Shown here: positions 3,963 to 29,093 of the stretch, piece by piece
Position numbering within the stretch: the first letter of the stretch is position 1
How the letters are laid out: the number at the start of each line of letters is the position of its first letter
NCBI GenBank assembly: GCA_005790605.1
Contig: SXUI01000051.1
Location: 62,001 to 126,000 of the forward strand
Direction: 5' to 3'
DNA length: 64,000 nucleotides
Source of the DNA: Planctomycetia bacterium
GTDB lineage: Bacteria; Planctomycetota; Phycisphaerae; Phycisphaerales; SM1A02
The notes under the pieces: model-generated
Told to the model about the DNA's origin: nothing
What the model saw: only the letters and a program-made list of their open reading frames with translations
Databases searched by the model: none
Translations under genes and position numbers: made by a program

Positions 3963-4674
3963 CGCCTGTCTGTCGTTCTTCGCGGTCACGCTCGAAGCGC
4001 GGGAGCTTCGGCGCCACGAGGCGTTCGCCGACGGAAGACTCCCAGACGAATTGCACGGCTTCCTCCACGCTGTCGGTGACCATGAAGAGATCGAAGTCTT
4101 CGGGCGAGACGGTCTTGTACTCATCGCGCAGCGTTGCACGGAACCAATCGAGGAGTCCGTTCCAGAAGTCACGGCCCACGAGCACGACGGGAAATGGCTC
4201 AATTTTCAGGGTTTGCATGAGCGTGAGCGCTTCGAAGAGTTCATCCATGGTCCCGAATCCACCCGGGAAAATGATGAAGCCTTTCGCGTACTTCACGAAC
4301 ATAACTTTGCGGACGAAGAAGTAGCGGAACTCCAAGTCAATGTTCTGCCAGGGATTTGGATTCTGCTCCATCGGGAGAACGATGTTGAGGCCAACGCTTG
4401 TGCCGCCGGCCTCTCGTGCGCCCTTGTTTGCAGCTTCCATGATTCCAGGGCCGCCACCAGTGATCACCGCGAAGCCCTTTTGCACAAGGAGCTTCCCGCA
4501 CTGCTCAGCAAGTGCGTAGTGTGGGTGAGACGGGCTCAGTCGCGCGCTGCCGAAAACACTGACTGCGGGCCCAAGTTGCGAGAGCGTTTCGACGCCTTCT
4601 ACGAACTCGCTCACGATTCGAAAGACTCGCCATGACTCGAGGCTGAGTGATTGCCGACGCGCACTGGTATCCAT
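3895..4674 (-). CDS. LOG-family (TIGR00730) Rossmann-fold protein
   Basis: A 259-residue protein with both family signatures: GGPGIMEAANKGA at about 73-86 and PGGFGTMDE at 137-145. These form the phosphoribohydrolase active site of LOG-family nucleotide 5'-monophosphate nucleosidases, often mislabelled lysine decarboxylase. Known members cleave N6-modified or ordinary nucleoside monophosphates; which substrate applies here cannot be told. The last 30 residues are polar and poorly conserved, and their DNA also encodes the start of hrpB. The start codon has a TACGCT hexamer 6 nt upstream and no Shine-Dalgarno sequence, so the message may be leaderless. Confidence 0.88.
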   Translation of the reverse strand: MDTSARRQSLSLESWRVFRIVSEFVEGVETLSQLGPAVSVFGSARLSPSHPHYALAEQCGKLLVQKGFAVITGGGPGIMEAANKGAREAGGTSVGLNIVLPMEQNPNPWQNIDLEFRYFFVRKVMFVKYAKGFIIFPGGFGTMDELFEALTLMQTLKIEPFPVVLVGRDFWNGLLDWFRATLRDEYKTVSPEDFDLFMVTDSVEEAVQFVWESSVGERLVAPKLPRFERDREERQTGDGTRGGVKHRRIPGDGAHDPAI

Positions 4675-4680
4675 TCGTGC

Positions 4681-4686
4681 AGCGTA
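4681..4686 (-). promoter_or_regulatory. -10 element of a likely leaderless promoter (LOG gene)
   Basis: Minus-strand TACGCT lies 6 nt before the ATG at 4674, so transcription would start at or next to the start codon. The same spacing recurs at seven other genes here. No convincing -35 is visible. Confidence 0.5.
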
Positions 4687-4753
4687 GGGGTTTATTCGGC
4701 ATGCGGGGCTGATTTCGTAACTCTTTGCCGCAAAGATAGTTAGACACGCAGAT

Positions 4754-4783
4754 TTGCGTTCAAGGAGTCAGTTTGGCTACACT
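4754..4783 (+). promoter_or_regulatory. Likely leaderless promoter of folC
   Basis: TTGCGT (4754-4759), an 18-nt spacer and TACACT (4778-4783) form a sigma70-like promoter. The -10 box ends 6 nt before the ATG at 4790. The predicted transcription start therefore coincides with the start codon and there is no room for a ribosome-binding site. Confidence 0.5.
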
Positions 4784-4789
4784 CGCCAT

Positions 4790-6388
4790 ATGTCCAAAGT
4801 TCCTTCCGCATCGAGTGCTCGCACCGCTGCGTCATCGTCAAAGTCCGCTTCGACTCGCACACCGAAAAAGGCCACGCAGACTCCTGTGAAGGGGAAGGGG
4901 AAGCAAGTCGCCGAGGTGAAGTCCGCCCCGCCGACCCGTGGCTCGAAGGCCAAGACCAAACCAGTTGAAGCCGTGCCAGTGGCCGCCAAGAGCGTGACCA
5001 AGGCCTCGGCGATCTCAGCGATTACGAACTTTTCCTCGGCGGTTCGATATCTGCTCGAGCGCACGGATTTCGAGCGCATGCGAACAGTGAAGTACAACGA
5101 AGAGACATTCACGCTTGCGCGCATGCATGCGATTCTTGGGAAGTTGGGAAATCCGCACCAACAGATTCGCACAGTGCATGTGGCCGGGACCAATGGCAAG
5201 GGTTCGACTGTGGCGATGATCGCCTCGATGTTGCAGGCGTGCGGCTACACCGTTGGTGTGTACACGAGTCCGCACTTGATGGACATTCGTGAGCGGATCG
5301 CTGTGAACGGAAACCTCGTCGATCGCAACACATTCGCGGAACTCACGAAGCAGGTCGCTGTTGCAGCTTCCAAGGCTGGCGTGGATCCCACATTCTTCGA
5401 GGTGCTCACTGCAGCTGCGTTCAAGCACTTCGTTGATCAAGCGGTCGACATCGCGATCATCGAAGTCGGTCTTGGTGGACGACTTGACTCGACGAATGTG
5501 ATTACTCCAGACGCAAGTGTGATCACTTCGATCGATTTCGATCATGTCAAACTGCTTGGTGCAACGCTCCCGGAGATTGCGCGCGAAAAGGCAGGCATTT
5601 TCAAGCGGGGCGTGCCTGCGTTCATCTTCGAAAGCGAAGCGATCGTTGAGAAGACTTTGGCCGAATCCGCCGCCGCGGTTGGAGCGCCACTCCGCATCGT
5701 CAACAAGGACATCGACTTTTCAAGTCGCTTCTGCGTCACCGATGACCTCGGTCCGCATGCGCGCGTTTGCCTCTATTCGAAGACCTCGCGGCTCGAACAC
5801 CTTCCCGTTCCGCTTTCGGGCGAGCACATGGCAATCAACTGCGGCCTCGCCCTCGCCGTCGTCGACCATCTTCGCACGGTTGGCTTCGACTGCCCCGAAG
5901 ACAAGCTAACGACGGGATTGGCCGCGACAAAGGTGTCTGGCCGGATGCAGCTTGTGTGGGAACGCCCGCGCGTGGTCGTGGATGGCGCGCACAACCCAGC
6001 GGCGGTCGGCGCGCTCATGCGCTGCATCGGCGCGCACATTCCCTACGACTCGATGGTGTGCGTATTCGGTTGCTGCGCAGATAAGGACATCCCCGGACTC
6101 CTCGACAAGCTCAATCTTGGCGCCGACAAGGTCATCTTTACGAAGTCGCCTTCGACGCCGCGTTCGGCGGATCCAGAGGATCTTCAGAAGATGTTCAATG
6201 AACGCAGCGGCAAGATGAGCATGATTGCGCGGTCGGTGCCTGAGGCATTGGAGATGGCGACTCGCGCGGTCAGTCGTGACGACCTCGTCTGCGTGACGGG
6301 CTCGTTCTATCTCGTCGGAGACACACTGAAGCATCTCGCGCAGCTCGATCGCAATGTGGGCGGGAAGATTCCCGCGGTTGTGAAGTAG
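4790..6388 (+). CDS. folC: Bifunctional folylpolyglutamate synthase / dihydrofolate synthase
   Basis: Adds glutamate to dihydropteroate or folate in the cytoplasm, an ATP-dependent Mur-ligase-type reaction. The P-loop VAGTNGKGSTVAM lies at about residues 131-143, followed by YTSPHLMDIRERI and, later, EVGLGGRLDSTN and VVDGAHNPAAV, all FolC landmarks. The protein is about 532 aa, roughly 80-100 longer than usual. The excess is an N-terminal Lys/Ala/Ser/Thr/Pro-rich tail of about 75 residues before the conserved start of the family. An in-frame start at 4754 exists, but the ATG at 4790 fits the promoter spacing. leuS follows after 10 bp. Confidence 0.94.
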   Translation: MSKVPSASSARTAASSSKSASTRTPKKATQTPVKGKGKQVAEVKSAPPTRGSKAKTKPVEAVPVAAKSVTKASAISAITNFSSAVRYLLERTDFERMRTVKYNEETFTLARMHAILGKLGNPHQQIRTVHVAGTNGKGSTVAMIASMLQACGYTVGVYTSPHLMDIRERIAVNGNLVDRNTFAELTKQVAVAASKAGVDPTFFEVLTAAAFKHFVDQAVDIAIIEVGLGGRLDSTNVITPDASVITSIDFDHVKLLGATLPEIAREKAGIFKRGVPAFIFESEAIVEKTLAESAAAVGAPLRIVNKDIDFSSRFCVTDDLGPHARVCLYSKTSRLEHLPVPLSGEHMAINCGLALAVVDHLRTVGFDCPEDKLTTGLAATKVSGRMQLVWERPRVVVDGAHNPAAVGALMRCIGAHIPYDSMVCVFGCCADKDIPGLLDKLNLGADKVIFTKSPSTPRSADPEDLQKMFNERSGKMSMIARSVPEALEMATRAVSRDDLVCVTGSFYLVGDTLKHLAQLDRNVGGKIPAVVK

Positions 6389-21168: not shown

Positions 21169-23865
21169 ATGGCCAGCACCATGATCGCGAAGAAAGCAAA
21201 GAAGTCGTCCAAATCGAGCAGCAAGATGACCTACTACTTCGGTGAAACGAAGTGTGAGGGGCATGCGGGTCAGAAGCTGCTGCTCGGCGGCAAGGGCGCG
21301 AACCTGGCTGACATGGTTTCGATCGGACTTCCGGTTCCGCCAGGCTTCACCATCACGACCGACACGTGCGCGGCGTACTACGACTGCGGCGGGAAACTGC
21401 CCAAGGGCTTGATGGACGATGTTCGGAAGAATGTAAAGATGCTTGAGAAGGAGCTTGGAAAGAAGTTCGGTTCCGACTCGAATCCGTTGCTCGTCTCCGT
21501 GCGCTCAGGCGCCGCAGTTTCGATGCCCGGCATGATGGATACGGTTCTGAATCTCGGCCTCACCGACAAGGCCGTTGAAGGACTCGCGAAGGGAACCGGC
21601 AACCGCCGCTTTGCGTTTGACGCGTATCGCCGACTCATCAACATGTTCGGCGATGTTGTGATGGGCGTTGATCACCACAAGTTTGAGCATGCGTTTAGCG
21701 CGATCAAGACCAAGTACGGCGTGAAGGAAGACACGCAGGTCCCAACCGAAGGACTTGAAGAGCTCGTTGCTGAGTACAAGAAGGTCTACAAGGCTCAAGT
21801 CGGAGCGGACTTCCCGCAAGATCCAATGTTGCAACTTGAGCATGCGATCAAGGCAGTATTCAGTTCGTGGAACGGCGACCGCGCGATCGAGTATCGTCGC
21901 ATTCAAGAGATCAAGGGTCTCAACGGCACAGCGGTCAATGTCCAAGCGATGGCGTATGGCAACATGGGCGAGACCTCGGGTACTGGTGTTGCGTTCACGC
22001 GCGACAACACGACGGGTGAGAATGTGTTCTACGGCGAGTTCCTTGTGAATGCCCAGGGCGAAGATGTTGTCGCCGGTATTCGTACGCCCGAGCCGATCTC
22101 GAGGATGGAGAAGCGCTTTCCAAAGGCGTTCGCGCACCTGATGAAGGTTCGCGCCAAACTTGAGAAGCACTACAAGGACATGCAGGATATTGAGTTCACC
22201 GTTGAGAACGGCAAGCTCTTCATGTTGCAAACCCGAACTGGCAAGCGCACCGCGCAGGCCGCAGTGCGGATCGCTGTCGAGATGGTCAAGGAGAAACTCA
22301 TCGATGAGAAGACCGCGCTCAAGCGCATTCCCGCGAGTGACTTGACGCAACTTCTCTTGCCCTTCTTCTCTCCGAAGGACAAAGCCGACGCGGAAACCGT
22401 CACCCGGGGCATCGGCGCTTCGCCAGGCGCGGCGACCGGCAAGCTCGCATTCACCGCAGCTGAGGCTGTCGAACGCGCACACAAGGGCGAGAAGGTGCTT
22501 CTCGTTCGCAAGGAAACAAGCCCCGAGGATGTCGCGGGTATGCACAGTGCGGTGGGCATTCTCACCTCAACAGGTGGCAAGACGAGTCACGCTGCAGTCG
22601 TCGCGGTCGGCTGGGGCAAGTGCTGCGTCGTCGGCGCGGGCGAACTCTCGATTGATGAGAAGGCGGGCAAGCTCTTTGTGAAGGGTCGCAGTTTCGGTCG
22701 TGAGGATGTGCTCTCGATCGACGGAGCGACTGGCGAGGTCATGGTCGGCGCCGTCAAGGCAACGATTCCCGAGAAGATCTCGGGCGATTTCGCGAAGGTC
22801 ATGGCGTGGTCAGACAAGTACGCGAGCATGAAGGTTCGCACCAACGCTGATTCACCTGAGGACGCGCGTCGGGCACGCGAGTTCGGTGCCGTCGGTATTG
22901 GGTTGTGCCGCACCGAGCACATGTTCTTCGGCGGGGAGCGAACGGCGGCCATTCGCGAGATGATCCTCAGCGAGACCATTGAGTCGCGCGAAAAGGCGCT
23001 CGCGAAGCTTCTTCCATTCCAGCGCACTGATTTCATCGGCATCTTCACGGCAATGTCCGGATTGCCGGTGACCGTGCGCCTTCTTGATCCGCCGCTCCAT
23101 GAGTTTGTGCCGCATGACGAGAAGCAGCAGGCCGAGCTCGCGAAGGAGATGGGAATCTCGCTCGAGCAAGTCAAGCGCCGCGTCGCGCAGTTGCATGAAG
23201 CGAACCCGATGCTTGGGCATCGTGGTTGCCGATTGGCGATCACCTATCCCGAGATTCTCCGCATGCAGATCCGCGCCATCGTGGAGGCAGCGATTGAGTG
23301 CCGCAGCAAGAAGATCGACGCGCGCCCTGAGATCATGCATCCGCTCGTCGGCACGAAGAAGGAGCTCGTCAGCCTCCGCAAGATGACGGAGGAGACGATC
23401 GCGCAAGTGTTCGCCGAGAAGCGCGTGAAGAAGCAGTTCGAGATTCCGATCGGCACCATGATCGAGATCCCTCGCGCTGCGGTCACCGCTGACGAGATCG
23501 GCGAAGTCGCAGACTTCTTCAGCTTCGGTACGAATGATCTTACGCAGATGACCTTCGGTTTCAGTCGTGACGACATTGGTTCGTTCCTCCCTGCGTACCT
23601 TGCGAAGGGCATGCTCGAGAAGGATCCGTTCCAGTCGATTGATACTGTCGGCGTTGGCGCATTGGTGTACATCGCGTGCGAAAAGGGCCGTGAAGTTGCG
23701 AAGGCGCAGAAGAAGGCGTTCAAACTCGGTGTTTGCGGCGAGCACGGCGGCGATCCAGCGTCGATCGCGTTTTTCCAGAAGTGCGGACTTGACTATGTGA
23801 GCTGCTCGCCGTTCCGCGTGCCCATCGCCCGCGTGGCGGCTGCTCAGGCACGCCTGCGTGCCTGA
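21169..23865 (+). CDS. ppdK: Pyruvate, phosphate dikinase
   Basis: Interconverts pyruvate, ATP and Pi with PEP, AMP and PPi in the cytoplasm; the physiological direction cannot be told from sequence. At 898 aa all three domains are present. They are the N-terminal ATP-grasp region, the phosphohistidine swivel (GGKTSHAA, His474) and the C-terminal PEP/pyruvate TIM barrel with CGEHGGDP (Cys856). A Lys/Ser-rich tail of about 20 residues precedes the conserved start. AGGA at 21157 lies 8 nt before the ATG, so this gene has a normal leader. TGTACACT at 21104-21111 is a plausible -10 region. Confidence 0.97.
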   Translation: MASTMIAKKAKKSSKSSSKMTYYFGETKCEGHAGQKLLLGGKGANLADMVSIGLPVPPGFTITTDTCAAYYDCGGKLPKGLMDDVRKNVKMLEKELGKKFGSDSNPLLVSVRSGAAVSMPGMMDTVLNLGLTDKAVEGLAKGTGNRRFAFDAYRRLINMFGDVVMGVDHHKFEHAFSAIKTKYGVKEDTQVPTEGLEELVAEYKKVYKAQVGADFPQDPMLQLEHAIKAVFSSWNGDRAIEYRRIQEIKGLNGTAVNVQAMAYGNMGETSGTGVAFTRDNTTGENVFYGEFLVNAQGEDVVAGIRTPEPISRMEKRFPKAFAHLMKVRAKLEKHYKDMQDIEFTVENGKLFMLQTRTGKRTAQAAVRIAVEMVKEKLIDEKTALKRIPASDLTQLLLPFFSPKDKADAETVTRGIGASPGAATGKLAFTAAEAVERAHKGEKVLLVRKETSPEDVAGMHSAVGILTSTGGKTSHAAVVAVGWGKCCVVGAGELSIDEKAGKLFVKGRSFGREDVLSIDGATGEVMVGAVKATIPEKISGDFAKVMAWSDKYASMKVRTNADSPEDARRAREFGAVGIGLCRTEHMFFGGERTAAIREMILSETIESREKALAKLLPFQRTDFIGIFTAMSGLPVTVRLLDPPLHEFVPHDEKQQAELAKEMGISLEQVKRRVAQLHEANPMLGHRGCRLAITYPEILRMQIRAIVEAAIECRSKKIDARPEIMHPLVGTKKELVSLRKMTEETIAQVFAEKRVKKQFEIPIGTMIEIPRAAVTADEIGEVADFFSFGTNDLTQMTFGFSRDDIGSFLPAYLAKGMLEKDPFQSIDTVGVGALVYIACEKGREVAKAQKKAFKLGVCGEHGGDPASIAFFQKCGLDYVSCSPFRVPIARVAAAQARLRA

Positions 23866-24350: not shown

Positions 24351-25310
24351 ATGGACTTGCGAACCAGAACTTGCCAGACGCCCGCCAGTGAAGGCGCGCG
24401 ACGGGCAGCTGATGTCTCTCGTTCTTTTCCGATTGCACGCACGTGCTGTGTAGGCGTCCTTGGCTTGTCCATCGCGGCAATTGCCCGTGGCCAAAACATT
24501 CCAGCCGAACCTGAAATCGAATACTCCGCGATTGACACACTGATGCAGTGGGATGTTGCCGATGGGGGTAACGGACACTGCTATGTGATCATTCGCGAGC
24601 CAGGAATGTTGCGATGGGATAGTGCTGTTGGCCTTGCCCATGCGATGGGGGGCGAATTGGCGTCGCTTTCAACCCGTGACGAGTTCATGTGGGTCTTTGA
24701 GAATGTGGTCGACAACCCATTGGCGTGGAGCGGTGCTGCAGGTCCATGGATTGGCGCCTACCGCGATCCAACACCCGATCAAGCAAGTGACCCCGCACTC
24801 GGATGGCATTGGGTTGATCAAACGCCGTGGGTCTTCTCGCCGTGGGACCTCAAGGTCGGCAATCCACCCAATCAGAATTGCCCAGGCCAAGATGAGTGTG
24901 TCCTGCGCTTCGCGGATGCGCAGTGCAATGGCTATCCGATGCCCCAGACCGAAGACCGCACGATCAATGATGCATGTGTCGCGTGCTCCCCGACTGAGCT
25001 CGACCCACGCACCGCAGTTGTCGAGTTTGATGCAGATTGCGATGAAGACGGACTTGTTGACTTTGCCGAGATCGTCTTCGGTGGAGCGAGCGATAGCAAT
25101 CGGAACTGGATTCCAGACCACTGCGAGTGCCTCGGAGACTTTGATGGCGATGGAGTTGTCGGAGCTGCGGATCTCTCCGTGCTCTTACAGGAGTGGGGCG
25201 CGCATGGCGCGTCGGTCGCTGATCTCAACATCGACGGCTCCGTCGACGGAGATGATTTCTCCGTCTTCATGTCGCTGTGGGGACCGTGCCAATTCTGCGG
25301 CTCTTGCTAA
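24351..25310 (+). CDS. Exported C-type-lectin-like protein with dockerin-type Ca repeats
   Basis: A 319-aa protein. An N-terminal signal region (hydrophobic at about 30-46) ends at ARGQ. A C-type-lectin-like fold follows at about 58-205 (GHCYVIIREPGMLRWDSAV, ELASLSTRDEF, WIGAYRD, WHWVDQTPW, then Cys-rich). Next come short Asp-rich Ca-binding turns (CDEDGLVD, SDSNRNWIPD) and two dockerin-like repeats (DFDGDGVVGAADLSVLLQEW; DLNIDGSVDGDDFSVFMSLW). It is likely a secreted carbohydrate- or surface-binding protein. Its stop codon overlaps that of the convergent CBM9-like gene by 3 bp. The closest relatives by layout in this window are the proteins at 46 and 48 kb. Confidence 0.85.
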   Translation: MDLRTRTCQTPASEGARRAADVSRSFPIARTCCVGVLGLSIAAIARGQNIPAEPEIEYSAIDTLMQWDVADGGNGHCYVIIREPGMLRWDSAVGLAHAMGGELASLSTRDEFMWVFENVVDNPLAWSGAAGPWIGAYRDPTPDQASDPALGWHWVDQTPWVFSPWDLKVGNPPNQNCPGQDECVLRFADAQCNGYPMPQTEDRTINDACVACSPTELDPRTAVVEFDADCDEDGLVDFAEIVFGGASDSNRNWIPDHCECLGDFDGDGVVGAADLSVLLQEWGAHGASVADLNIDGSVDGDDFSVFMSLWGPCQFCGSC

Positions 25311-26389
25311 CGCGTCGTGTCGACAAACTTCACCTTGCCCCAATACTTCGGGTCGTGCATGTCAATCTGCCATTGCGGACTCCACACCCAGTTGTCCTCT
25401 GGTTTTCCAGGGACTTTCTGATACGGGAATGCGGGTGTTCCTGGCGCAGATTCAATCGGAGGCGCAGGCTGCGTGTAGCTATCGTTGATGGGTAATGCGG
25501 GAGCTTCTTGAGAAGCAGTCTTTCCTTCGAGCGTTGTCGTCCACTGTACGCGAGAGAAATTGACCCGCCACACCTCCCCAGCTTTCGGCGCCGCGGCGGC
25601 GCGGGTTTTCTCACTGAAACTTGGGAGCGGTAGTTCGGGCGGTTTGAAGGCGCTCCACGGAATCGCCCACTCGAGTGTCCATGCGCGATCGGTATCAGTT
25701 GGATCGTTGAGCGTGCCGTCGAGGTGAATCGCGGTACGAAGCCCTTCCGCGTTCCACGCGTGCTCCGCGGGCCCATCTTCTTTGTAGCGCTTGTGCAAGT
25801 AGAGGTCGAAAATCGTTCCGAGCGCGTTTACTTCGATCTCGTAGTACTCACGCGAGTCTCCATCGGGGTCAATGAACACTTCGAAGTCGTTGTCGTGGAA
25901 CACAATCTCGTCATGCGTCTTGAGCGTCGCCCAGAGGTGCGGCTCTCGCAGTTCTGCGGCGATGTAGAAGTGCGTGGTATCCCACAGCATTTTCGCGCGA
26001 GTTCGGAAGCGAGGAGCCGAAAGCGCCGGCCCTTGGATATCGAGAAAGTCCTCGGTCCACGGGGCAGCAATCCACCCCGCATCGTCGAGTTTTCCATCGA
26101 GCGTTGGTGCAATCTTCGTCCGAACGCACGCATATTCGCGCGGCGGCGCGGTGACTGCGACGGGACTCGTCGGCGGCGAAGCAGGAGTCGGCAGCAGCGT
26201 GGGAGTGGCAGGGTTCGGTGGAGCAATCTGCGCTGTGGCGAGTGAATCGCCGCCAGCGCTCGGCGGACTCAGTGCGTCGGAGAGCGCGAACCGAAGACCC
26301 CGTCCTTGCTCCGCATTCGCGCCGAACACACCGAAGGGGACGACCATCACGAGAAACAGGGGGAATGTATGGCGCTTCGCGATCGTCAT
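25307..26389 (-). CDS. Exported CBM9-like carbohydrate-binding protein
   Basis: From ATG 26389 (MTIAKRHTFPLFLVMVV) the protein is about 360 aa with a signal peptide. Residues 95-300 or so have the family 9 carbohydrate-binding-like fold: PTLDGKLDDAGW, DNDFEVFIDPDGD, YYEIEVNALGTIFD, WTLEWAIPW and WRVNFSRVQW. Residues 30-54 are encoded by a fragment of the dispersed repeat family, so the mature N-terminal linker is repeat-derived. The following linker is Pro/Ala/Thr-rich. The likely role is binding of extracellular polysaccharide at the cell surface. A start at 26443 is possible but would put 18 residues before the signal peptide. Confidence 0.85.
   Translation of the reverse strand: MTIAKRHTFPLFLVMVVPFGVFGANAEQGRGLRFALSDALSPPSAGGDSLATAQIAPPNPATPTLLPTPASPPTSPVAVTAPPREYACVRTKIAPTLDGKLDDAGWIAAPWTEDFLDIQGPALSAPRFRTRAKMLWDTTHFYIAAELREPHLWATLKTHDEIVFHDNDFEVFIDPDGDSREYYEIEVNALGTIFDLYLHKRYKEDGPAEHAWNAEGLRTAIHLDGTLNDPTDTDRAWTLEWAIPWSAFKPPELPLPSFSEKTRAAAAPKAGEVWRVNFSRVQWTTTLEGKTASQEAPALPINDSYTQPAPPIESAPGTPAFPYQKVPGKPEDNWVWSPQWQIDMHDPKYWGKVKFVDTTR
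26230..26301 (-). repeat. Dispersed-repeat fragment inside a coding sequence
   Basis: On the gene's sense strand this stretch reads GTCTTC-GTTCGCGCTCT, GACGCACTGAGTCCGCC and GCGATTCACTCGCC, in the same order and with the same spacing as the middle of copies A and B. It encodes FALSDALSPPSAGGDSLA of the CBM9-like protein without breaking the frame. Confidence 0.65.
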
Positions 26390-26395
26390 GATCAC

Positions 26396-26401
26396 AGCGT
26401 A
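26396..26401 (-). promoter_or_regulatory. -10 element of a likely leaderless promoter (CBM9-like gene)
   Basis: Minus-strand TACGCT ends 6 nt before the ATG at 26389. This supports that start codon over the upstream one, which lies outside the transcript this promoter would give. Confidence 0.5.
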
Positions 26402-26492
26402 CCTCAGAGATCGCCACGAATTGGGACATCGAATGGAACGCACTCCTGATCGTGGGCGCTATGCTCAACCCTGATCTCTAGAGAGGAAACCC

Positions 26493-27824
26493 TTGGAACG
26501 CTCCGCCTTAACCCCTGGTCACCGCAGCAGCGCCGCGCGAATCTTTGAAGAGATTGGTGTTGTGCCGAGGGAGGAGAATCTCTTTCACGAGGCGGCTGAG
26601 CGGTTACTTCGCGCGTCCGAAATGGTCGGTCTCAAGCACCATCAGCAGATCATTCTCGCGCAGCCCAAGAGTGAGGTGATGGTCCAGTTCCCGGTGCAGA
26701 TGGATGATGGAAGGCACCGCCTCTACAAGGGCTACCGCGTGCAACACAATGATGCGCTCGGCCCTTATCTCGGAGGCATGCGATTTCATCCTCGCCTCTC
26801 GCTCGACACCGTGAAGGGCCTCGCAGTGCTTTCGACGCTGCGTGCTTCACTTGTCCGAGTTCCGTTCGGGGGAGCGTTTGGCGGTGTACGTTGCGCGATG
26901 GGTGAGATTTCTGAGGATGAACGCAGGCGCGTTGTTCGGCGTTTCTGTAGCGCAGTTTCGCATCAGATTGGTCCAGCCCATGACATCGTTGCGCCAGAGT
27001 CCGGCGCGGATAGTCAGACGATGGCGTGGTTCATGGACACTCTCGCGCAGACGACGCCTGAGCCATCTCGGCAGGATCAATCGCGCGCGGTGGTGGGCAA
27101 GCCGGGAGAACTCGGTGGGCTGATGCCGCGAGGTCGCGCAGCCGCATTGAGCGCGGTCGCAACCCTCGACACGCTGCTGCCTGACATCGATGTGAACGCG
27201 GAGGGTGCGCGAGTCGCGATCATGGGATTCGGCGCGGTTGGAAGCGCGATCGCTCGCGCATTGTCGGCGCGCGGCATGCCGGTGGTCGCAATTCTCACCC
27301 AGTCGTCCGCCGTTGCGAATGCGCATGGGATCGACGCGGTTGCGCTGCAGGCTCATCATGCTCGCACGGGTGGAGTCGAGAACTTCGATGGCGCGGATTC
27401 GCTGACAGAGGATGAGTTCTGGCAGATTCCCACCGAAGTGCTCGTCGTTGCGAGTCCCGAGCGATCGATGGATGCGCTCCGCGCTGCGAAAGTTCGCGCG
27501 CGCGTCGTCGTTGAAGCAGGGCTCGCGTGTACGACGCCCGCTGCGGAGGATGTGCTGTTGCAGCGATGCATTGACTTGTTCCCCGACATTCTTTGTTCGG
27601 CGGGTAGTGATGTCGCTCACTTCTTAGAGTGGAACGGTCTTCGCTCGCAACCCGGCGTTCGTCGCGAGGACGTGGAGGAGCATGTGCTGCGCCATGCACT
27701 CATGGCCGCGCGTCGAGTGCGAGTTGCGCGGATGAAGTACGAGTGCGATTGGCGTGTCGCCGCGCAATGCGCCGCGCTCGAGCGGATTGCGCGCGTGTAT
27801 GAGTTGCGCGGTGTTTTTCCGTGA
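26493..27824 (+). CDS. Glutamate-dehydrogenase-like protein with replaced catalytic residues
   Basis: A 443-aa member of the Glu/Leu/Phe/Val dehydrogenase superfamily, with the full two-domain layout and a Rossmann motif GFGAVG at about 246-251. In active enzymes (Clostridium symbiosum numbering, from memory) Lys89, Lys113, Lys125 and Asp165 bind substrate and catalyse. The equivalent positions here, at identical spacing, are Leu93 (GPYLGG for GPYKGG), Arg117, Phe129 (GGAFGG for GGAKGG) and Glu169 (APESGAD for APDVGTN). Dehydrogenation of glutamate is therefore unlikely. A regulatory, NAD(P)-sensing or otherwise repurposed role is possible. The TTG start has GAGAGG 6 nt upstream. The gene is intact, followed after 19 bp by the HIT gene. 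Confidence 0.88.
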   Translation: MERSALTPGHRSSAARIFEEIGVVPREENLFHEAAERLLRASEMVGLKHHQQIILAQPKSEVMVQFPVQMDDGRHRLYKGYRVQHNDALGPYLGGMRFHPRLSLDTVKGLAVLSTLRASLVRVPFGGAFGGVRCAMGEISEDERRRVVRRFCSAVSHQIGPAHDIVAPESGADSQTMAWFMDTLAQTTPEPSRQDQSRAVVGKPGELGGLMPRGRAAALSAVATLDTLLPDIDVNAEGARVAIMGFGAVGSAIARALSARGMPVVAILTQSSAVANAHGIDAVALQAHHARTGGVENFDGADSLTEDEFWQIPTEVLVVASPERSMDALRAAKVRARVVVEAGLACTTPAAEDVLLQRCIDLFPDILCSAGSDVAHFLEWNGLRSQPGVRREDVEEHVLRHALMAARRVRVARMKYECDWRVAAQCAALERIARVYELRGVFP

Positions 27825-27843: not shown

Positions 27844-28251
27844 ATGACGATTTTCGCAAAGATCCTTGCCGGCGAGATTCCATGTCATCGTGTGTACGAG
27901 GATGAGCATGTGCTGGCGTTCTTGGATGTCGCGCCTCTCTCTCGAGGGCATGTCCTCGTCATCCCGAAGGAGGCGCGAGCGCTCATCCACGAACTCTCCG
28001 ATGAGAGCGCGGCGGCAATCGGACGGGTCCTCCCTCGGCTTTGTCGAGCAGTCATGCAAGCAACCGGCGCGACTGCGTACAACCTCCTTCAAAACAACGG
28101 CAGCGCTGCGCATCAGGCAGTCATGCATGTGCATTTTCACATCATCCCGATGTCGAACGCTGGCGGATTGGGTGTGGTGTGGAAGCCGCAGCCCATGCGC
28201 GCTGAGGATGGCGCCGCGCTCGCCGAATCGCTGCGTGAGGCATTGAGGTGA
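27844..28251 (+). CDS. HIT-family (HINT-like) nucleotide hydrolase
   Basis: A 135-aa protein with the histidine triad HVHFHIIP (His95, His97, His99) and the N-terminal IFAKILAGEIPCHRVYED typical of HINT purine-nucleoside phosphoramidases. It probably hydrolyses nucleoside phosphoramidates or adenylates in the cytoplasm. The ATG at 27844 matches the family start; the open frame extends 30 residues upstream without homology. Its TGA overlaps the GTG start of birA, so the two are translationally coupled. Confidence 0.93.
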   Translation: MTIFAKILAGEIPCHRVYEDEHVLAFLDVAPLSRGHVLVIPKEARALIHELSDESAAAIGRVLPRLCRAVMQATGATAYNLLQNNGSAAHQAVMHVHFHIIPMSNAGGLGVVWKPQPMRAEDGAALAESLREALR

Positions 28252-29093
28252 GCGGCGAATCCGCCAGTCGCGCATCCGAACGCGCGCATTGGGAGCAGTC
28301 TTTGCAATCGCAGGTTGGCGCGCAGTTGGAACTCGCGGGCTCCGGCGATGGATCGGCGCCACGCATTCGCCGCGTGATCGTGCTTGACGAAACCGCGTCG
28401 ACGCAGGATGCAGAGGAAACACGAAGCGCGGAGTCGGGAACCGTCATCACGGCATTACGGCAGTCGAGTGGACGCGGTCGACTCGGTCGCTCGTGGAGTG
28501 ATCCTCATGGCGAGGGAGTCGCGATGACTGCGGTGCTTCCGTCGCGTCCATTCGCAGCGCCAGAGCAGAGTGTCGAACTGCTCGCCCTTGCGAGTGCCGT
28601 TGCTGCCTCGCGCGCAGTCGAGAGCATGCTGCGTGAACCCGTCGGGATAAAATGGCCCAACGATCTCATCGTGCGCGGGAGAAAGCTCGGCGGCATTCTG
28701 ATCGAGAAGAGCAGAGATCGCATTCTGCTCGGCATCGGAGTGAATGTGCTGCAGCGCAGTTTCCCGCCAGAACTCGAGTCGATTGCGACGAGTATGTTCC
28801 TCGTTGCGAATACTCAATCCACAGTGACGAGGCTCGATGTCGTGCGATCAGTTCTTGCGGAACTCGAGCGAGTGCTTGTCCTCAGCGCGGATGCGATCTT
28901 GTATGAGTACGCGACTCGTGATGTCTTGAGCGGCTCAGTCGCCGCATTCGCAACATCCATGGGAACCATCGAGGGCGAGGTGTGTTCTGTCGATCCGCTG
29001 CGCGGGCTCACCGTGCGAAATGGATCCGGAGCGCACTTTCTTCCTGCCGCGACCACGACGGTTTGCAGCTGGAAGTCTAGATCCTCGATGTAG
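28248..29093 (+). CDS. birA: Biotin--[acetyl-CoA-carboxylase] ligase
   Basis: Activates biotin to biotinyl-AMP and attaches it to the carboxyl carrier protein. The ligase motifs SSGRGRLGRSW (74-84) and KWPNDL (135-140) are present, with GGILIE and LGIGVNV following and a short SH3-like C-terminal domain. The 281-aa protein lacks the N-terminal winged helix of E. coli BirA, so it is a group I enzyme without repressor function. The GTG start sits in the HIT stop codon. The first 40 residues are less conserved. Confidence 0.93.
   Translation: MSGESASRASERAHWEQSLQSQVGAQLELAGSGDGSAPRIRRVIVLDETASTQDAEETRSAESGTVITALRQSSGRGRLGRSWSDPHGEGVAMTAVLPSRPFAAPEQSVELLALASAVAASRAVESMLREPVGIKWPNDLIVRGRKLGGILIEKSRDRILLGIGVNVLQRSFPPELESIATSMFLVANTQSTVTRLDVVRSVLAELERVLVLSADAILYEYATRDVLSGSVAAFATSMGTIEGEVCSVDPLRGLTVRNGSGAHFLPAATTTVCSWKSRSSM

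Follow-up and report, generated by a model that had tools for sequence, protein, structure and literature searches.

A probable non-catalytic, ligand-binding member of the glutamate dehydrogenase family in a lineage of Planctomycetota

Is a full-length glutamate dehydrogenase (GDH) homologue that lacks the catalytic lysine still an enzyme? The question is raised by an open reading frame (ORF) in a 64,000-nucleotide stretch of a planctomycete genome (contig SXUI01000051.1), here called the window. An earlier note, made from the letters of the window, had described the product as a GDH homologue stripped of its catalytic lysines and catalytic aspartate, and had proposed either a pseudoenzyme or a new activity on an intact NAD(P)-binding chassis. 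Comparison of the sequence with its relatives leads us to consider it reasonably probable that the protein is a non-catalytic, ligand-binding GDH pseudoenzyme, a sensor or regulator that is vertically inherited, and not a new dehydrogenase.

We first established what kind of protein the ORF encodes. The frame has no internal stop, and its coordinates, strand, and length are those given earlier. Both Pfam domains of the ELFV (Glu/Leu/Phe/Val) dehydrogenase family were found above their curated cut-offs (PF02812, ELFV_dehydrog_N, E-value 3e-41, 140.6 bits against 25.3; PF00208, ELFV_dehydrog, 2.2e-33, 116.4 bits against 23.4), which makes the protein a full-length member of this family. The NCBIfam GDH equivalog cut-offs were not reached (the best score, 273.4 bits, falls short of the required 620); the best models were archaeal GDHs, with scores far under their cut-offs. 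An AlphaFold model (pLDDT 93.9) predicted the two-domain GDH fold, and structural comparison gave Z scores of 44.9-55.3 over 403-430 residues for the 50 entries listed, with 55.3 to plant GDH2 among the matches listed.

The active site is where the protein departs from the family. In HMMER alignments that are gap-free in this region, L93, R117, F129, and E169 lie opposite the K, K, K, and D of Thermus GdhB and T. maritima GDH, and MAFFT alignments gave the same placement, which bears out the assignment in the earlier note. According to the portion of PMC11096400 available to us, the ligand pocket of T. profundus GDH is formed by Lys69, Lys93, Lys105, Arg187, and Ser351, with participation of Asp145, Asn319, and Asn344; in Arabidopsis GDH1 (AtGDH1), the available text of PMC7326016 names Asp142 as the general base and has water primed by Lys102. 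T. profundus numbers were converted to window numbers by an offset of 24 early and 25 late in the chain (HMMER ranges), and the arginine was placed via the GGxxxR motif. The eight equivalents are thus 93, 117, 129, 213, 376, 169, 344, and 369, and only R213 is kept. Among the ligand contacts of active GDH (K93, K117, R213, N369, S376), the window protein retains R213 alone, while catalytic Lys 129 is F and catalytic Asp 169 is E. Below, sequences are named by their residues at 93, 117, 129, and 169; canonical rows read KKKD, pseudo rows depart from this at one or more positions, and the sub-clade comprises the R117/F129 sequences to which the window protein belongs. The gene, its putative ribosome-binding site, and the codons concerned are as follows.

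26483..26488, + strand: Shine-Dalgarno-like GAGGAA, four bases 5' of the TTG start (read from the sequence)
26493..27824, + strand: ORF of the putative GDH-family pseudoenzyme, 443 amino acids, TTG start (ORF list, Pfam, HMMER, MAFFT, AlphaFold)
26769..26771, + strand: codon L93, canonical K, T. profundus Lys69 (HMMER/MAFFT alignment; role in T. profundus from the available part of PMC11096400)
26841..26843, + strand: codon R117, canonical K, T. profundus Lys93 (HMMER/MAFFT alignment)
26877..26879, + strand: codon F129, canonical catalytic K, T. profundus Lys105, AtGDH1 Lys102 (alignment; available parts of PMC7326016 and PMC11096400)
26997..26999, + strand: codon E169, canonical catalytic D, T. 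profundus Asp145, AtGDH1 Asp142 (alignment)
27129..27131, + strand: codon R213, T. profundus Arg187 (via GGxxxR), sole canonical residue among the eight of the pocket
27225..27242, + strand: GxGxxG dinucleotide fingerprint, residues 245-250, GFGAVG (alignment)
27297..27299, + strand: codon T269, canonical D lost (D in 44/44 canonical and 0/15 sub-clade rows)
27522..27524, + strand: codon L344, canonical N, T. profundus Asn319 (alignment)
27597..27599, + strand: codon S369, canonical N, T. profundus Asn344 (alignment)
27609..27611, + strand: codon D373, new conserved acid, V in canonical rows (sub-clade D 13, E 2 of 15; canonical V 37/37)
27618..27620, + strand: codon H376, canonical S, T. profundus Ser351 (sub-clade H in 4/15, S in 10/15)

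The earlier note had seen only the end point of what the family displays as a graded series. All eight pocket residues were retained in 44/44 canonical rows. Outside the sub-clade, the five ligand contacts (93, 117, 213, 369, 376) were all present in 45 of 48 distinct pseudo rows and the full catalytic set (129, 169, 344) in 0/48. Within the sub-clade, neither the contacts nor the catalytic residues were complete in any row (0/15 for each); R117 and F129 were found in 15/15 distinct rows from two genera, K129 in none, and N344 and N369 were absent from all 15. R213 was invariant throughout (102/102 aligned sequences; 15/15 sub-clade and 48/48 other pseudo rows). Alignment A1 holds 102 of ~225 sequences. 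The sub-clade has a different majority residue at 57 of the 154 columns conserved in canonical sequences, and 12 of these are newly fixed, R117, F129, L184, A252, W310, G343, and D365 among them. The conserved acid at 373 is at a position that we presume to lie beside the substrate side chain. Taken together, these data suggest a series in which catalysis was compromised while binding was kept, and binding was then changed in the window's sub-clade.

Two parts of the original description needed trimming. At position 169, the 15 distinct R117/F129 sequences have E in 8 and D in 7, including one of the window's three congeners, so that the signature common to the sub-clade is the loss of K93, K117, and K129; the loss of the lysines is shared, but the aspartate is not cleanly lost. 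The dinucleotide-binding motif GxGxxG is retained (15/15 sub-clade, 48/48 other pseudo, and 42/44 canonical rows), but to call the NAD(P) site intact is too strong: D269, the acid after beta-2 to which we attribute a ribose-binding role, is kept in 44/44 canonical and 40/48 other pseudo rows and in 0/15 of the sub-clade. T217, N248, and N344 also vary there, and the variation at T217 and N248 suggests weaker NAD binding. These changes would suit a pocket that has been re-specialised and binds NAD less well. A new activity on the NAD(P) chassis finds no support here, the catalytic lysine, both pocket asparagines, and the acid after beta-2 all being gone from the sub-clade, whereas the proposal of a pseudoenzyme is well supported by the shared substitutions, purifying selection, and the predicted fold.

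Orthologues were sought in 101 relatives and 181 genomes of the window's family, and mostly the orthologue is the sole one of its kind in its genome. Matches at E <= 0.001 were obtained in 148/181 family genomes, and 87 hold an orthologue at or above the threshold of 270 bits; by hand count from the match tables, the four residues are no longer complete in 68 of these, from 12 genera, and the remaining 19 read KKKD. Three of the 68 are partial (G034, G117, G118), and G216, a fragment only, was left out of the count. Signatures are fixed per genus: [L/H/M]RF[D/E] in the window's genus (4 genomes) and g45 (11), KKKG in g39 (14), KKYG in g25 (10), KKAE in g17 (7), KKFD in g6 (2), and KKAD in g42 (15), g2 (1), and g32 (1, partial); KKCE (g43), KKMD (g26), and KKSD (g9) each occur in a single genome. 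Six g45 genomes were read via identical named records, and G105, a duplicate core row that was dropped there, was read separately as KKAD. With R117/F129 in the three congeners and in all 11 g45 orthologues read, a strain-specific loss was rejected.

In an IQ-TREE phylogeny with the four columns masked (84 of 108 orthologue rows, near-identical ones dropped; the truncated L056 from G034 was not placed), 46 of the 47 placed losers form one clade of 10 genera without a KKKD row (support 99/96), and a quick tree of the same 84 rows plus 6 outgroup rows recovered the same 46-row clade (SH-aLRT 92). The minimum number of changes on the tree was 2 for any loss, 3 for K129, and 6 for D169, and the pseudo clade has long branches. 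The exception outside the clade, the KKSD row L024 (genome G011, genus g9), is probably a second, independent loss. A GdhA-type GDH is matched in G011, a large GDH is not. Altered signatures were also seen further afield. In the Planctomycetota metagenome-assembled genomes ANT-38 and ANT-129 and on two contigs of cluster2_bin.28, a KKKD GDH frame overlaps or abuts an LKMD GDH frame (L110 2926-5532, L131 2932-5527, L148 1663-3976, L157 1279-3880), an arrangement that resembles a gdhA/gdhB pair. Archaeal GDH homologues with an altered catalytic lysine read KKYD in L108 and L111 (Methanomassiliicoccales) and KKMD in L124 (Undinarchaeales), where a KKKD GDH-like frame lies downstream at 4651-5985.

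The selection analysis indicated that the gene is maintained. In the window's genus, omega was 0.029-0.063 in 6/6 pairs (dS 1.2-1.7; NG86, which is approximate at dS > 1), and mean omega was 0.05-0.12 in 6/7 pseudo genera tested and 0.21 in the seventh, g25; 15 pairs beyond the dS limits were set aside (1/45 in g45, 9/45 in g39, 5/28 in g42). The selection on the window gene is purifying. The earlier view of an undamaged frame with an intact fold held up, and a decaying gene was rejected for the window's genus by omega, the intact frames, and the fixed new residues.

We also considered which enzymes accompany the protein. In the window's genome (G000; 99% complete, 80 contigs), the second, canonical gdhA that the earlier note had considered was not found; the only other ELFV proteins detected there are a 981-amino-acid large NAD-GDH (PF05088 match; RGGLR, GGAK, and GPDEN strings) and a 364-amino-acid Leu/Trp-dehydrogenase-like protein. 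A glutamine synthetase match lies inside a 770-amino-acid frame, and no credible glutamate synthase (GOGAT) was found in this genome, the only match being a partial one of 23.4 bits that we took for another protein. Among pseudo versus KKKD genomes, large-GDH matches occurred in 62/68 versus 11/19 (hand count), GOGAT matches above 50 bits in 0/68 versus 4/19 (Fisher p 0.002, relatedness ignored), and a second small-GDH match in 2/68 versus 14/19 (Fisher p 2e-10, relatedness ignored); the two pseudo genomes concerned are G011, owing to its GdhA-type gene, and G169, where the match is weak and unlisted. Since large-GDH matches are common and no credible GOGAT was found, the large enzyme is probably the source of glutamate. 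In L075 (3906-6851, - strand), residues 25-257 of the large NAD-GDH match protein-PII uridylyltransferase (GlnD) models, presumably through ACT-like domains.

The neighbourhood of the gene is conserved, and the neighbours in the window are as follows.

21169..23865, + strand: pyruvate phosphate dikinase (PPDK), syntenic neighbour, conserved upstream (Pfam PPDK_N and PEP-utilizers domains)
25307..26443, - strand: CBM9-like protein, syntenic neighbour (Pfam CBM9_1, 43.3 bits)
27844..28251, + strand: HIT-domain protein directly downstream (Pfam HIT, 87.8 bits; the listed ORF begins at 27754, start chosen here)
28248..29093, + strand: biotin/lipoate-ligase-family protein downstream (Pfam BPL_LplA_LipB, 64.1 bits)

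Within flank reach, the order PPDK, CBM9-like, GDH, HIT, biotin-ligase-like, ParA-like is kept in the compared pseudo genera except in L024. It is partly present in canonical loci of the window's family, with PPDK upstream in the KKKD loci L088, L197, L205, L206, L211, and L231 and not in L199; the PPDK, CBM9, HIT, ligase, and ParA neighbours were not found in five canonical loci of the order's other families (L036, L037, L040, L041, L045). The conserved order points to vertical descent at one site. The CBM9-like gene (25307-26443, - strand) runs against the GDH gene in the window's genus; in the other genera compared, the two genes share a strand. At four loci (L238, L239, L240, L241), no GDH was detectable between the CBM9-like and HIT genes, the locus being otherwise intact. 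Any of the PPDK, CBM9-like, HIT, biotin-ligase-like, or ParA-like proteins is unlikely to be an obligate partner, as these genes persist where the GDH gene is absent.

Several observations weigh against a maintained, non-catalytic ligand binder. The catalytic losses are not uniform among the 48 pseudo rows outside the sub-clade, where K129 is kept in 14, D169 in 16, and N344 in 11, so that residual or altered activity is possible in some relatives. Three canonical genera had mean omega values of 0.13-0.20 in the same analysis, single pairs reach 0.26 (g45) and 0.38 (g25), and the omega estimates carry the approximation noted above. No GDH was detectable at the intact locus in G104, G109, and G110 (g42) and G164 (g39), while the same search recovered the gene in 6/6 control loci that have it; absence in these four genomes of two pseudo genera indicates that the protein is dispensable there. 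This count leaves out G145 (contig ends 1.4 kb past PPDK) and G047, G050, G028, and G178 (no full-length PPDK), and it does not cover pseudo-genus genomes without a match such as G111, G143, G146, and G151. No active small-GDH partner was found in the window's genome, unlike in Thermus. Finally, the leucine-site residues R150 and D182 and the C-terminal RGVFP are present in the window protein, and R150, D182, R439, and G440 show almost no variation across the family, so that their retention says little; leucine sensing as the specific function could not be distinguished, the site being conserved in canonical members too.

How could such a protein work? Parsimony would place a single loss of catalysis at the base of the pseudo clade or close to it, and the protein may still assemble as a GDH-like subunit. 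It would act as a sensor or as a regulatory subunit: a small molecule would occupy the former substrate cleft, and closure of the two domains would be the output. Relatives that have changed less probably still take glutamate or 2-oxoglutarate as their ligand; the window's sub-clade may bind a different one, perhaps another amino acid, and in a candidate pose its carboxylate would rest on R117/R213, its amino group on D/E169, and its side chain against L93, F129, and D373. We further propose, tentatively and with more doubt than confidence, that a single lineage turned a GDH stepwise into a stand-alone amino-acid sensor, losing catalysis first with glutamate/2-oxoglutarate binding kept, after which the window's sub-clade changed ligand (L93, R117, F129, D/E373) and lost NAD binding.

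Other explanations share some of this evidence. The protein might be the regulatory subunit of a Thermus-like hetero-complex that tunes an active partner, perhaps the 981-amino-acid large NAD-GDH, in response to an amino acid. Thermus GdhA, in which the same lysine is replaced, offers a precedent, the leucine-site and C-terminal residues are retained, and the large enzyme is matched in those 62 pseudo-GDH genomes. Yet the large GDH is found in 160/181 family genomes irrespective of the pseudo-GDH, is a much longer protein, and is encoded on a separate contig (C38 and C60 for the two genes), and 66/68 pseudo genomes show no second small-GDH match; we regard a hetero-complex as doubtful. A relict on its way out, superfluous after the large NAD-GDH took over and constrained only by the cost of folding or expression, would account for the four empty loci, the long branches, and the scarcity of GOGAT (0/68) and of second small GDHs (2/68). 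Such a relict is unlikely, given mean omega values of at most 0.12 in 6/7 pseudo genera, ligand contacts that are retained in 45/48 rows while the catalytic set is not, and the new residues fixed in the sub-clade.

Those fixed residues would also suit a dehydrogenase with a changed substrate, in which an amino acid is still held by R117 and E169 and some other residue stands in for the catalytic lysine. In engineered or related enzymes, K89L accompanies non-polar substrates. A phenylalanine at 129, however, is unable to prime water, and with N344, N369, and D269 absent from 15/15 rows and T217 and N248 variable, we think a working dehydrogenase quite improbable. Least probable of all, and hardly to be expected, is a moonlighting protein whose role lies outside metabolism (binding to protein, nucleic acid, or ribosomes) and does not depend on the cleft any more. 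The varying NAD-site columns would agree with it, as would S. aureus YwlG, which is remotely GDH-like and binds the hibernation factor HPF according to the available text of PMC9522360; but several of the new conserved residues (117, 129, 373) occupy substrate-cleft positions, and YwlG is half-sized and without the catalytic domain. A non-catalytic, ligand-binding pseudoenzyme, its lack of GDH activity being deduced from the residues lost, remains the reading that we prefer. It has two practical consequences: the plain label glutamate dehydrogenase would mislead metabolic reconstruction of these Planctomycetota, in which the working GDH is likely to be the large NAD enzyme, and the path from enzyme to binder is testable, as the intermediates look binding-competent and persist in living species.

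A search of open-licence papers found no title on this pseudo-GDH clade, and the protein is best placed by comparison with three known systems. The canonical small GDHs of the same order (44 KKKD rows, e.g., L010, L197, L205) are orthologous and up to 51% identical, but retain eight of eight pocket residues in 44/44 rows, whereas the window protein retains one of eight. YwlG is discussed in the available text of PMC9522360 as a possible pseudo-GDH or GDH stimulator; the resemblance described there is remote and structural only, and its half size and missing catalytic domain mean that it is not a close analogue. The nearest precedent is Thermus thermophilus GdhA, described in the available parts of PMC9570180 and PMC12364357 as a catalytically inactive regulatory subunit involved in leucine activation of a hetero-hexamer with GdhB. 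GdhA (3aoe_C) shares the full-length GDH fold with the window protein (Z 52.2, rmsd 2.1, 35% identity over 414 residues), and the catalytic lysine is replaced in both, by A in GdhA and by F in the window. Its aligned residues 11-172 read K/K/A/D, the signature of g42, and we infer that it lost the lysine independently of the pseudo clade. GdhA keeps K, K, and D, while the first two lysines of the window protein are replaced too; GdhA works beside its active sister subunit GdhB, while no small-GDH partner was found in the window's genome; and in the window's lineage the losses mark a whole clade, with none but disarmed forms among its 46 rows (10 genera). What sets the window protein apart from this precedent is the combination of no partner found, replacement of the other two lysines, and a graded series across a lineage.
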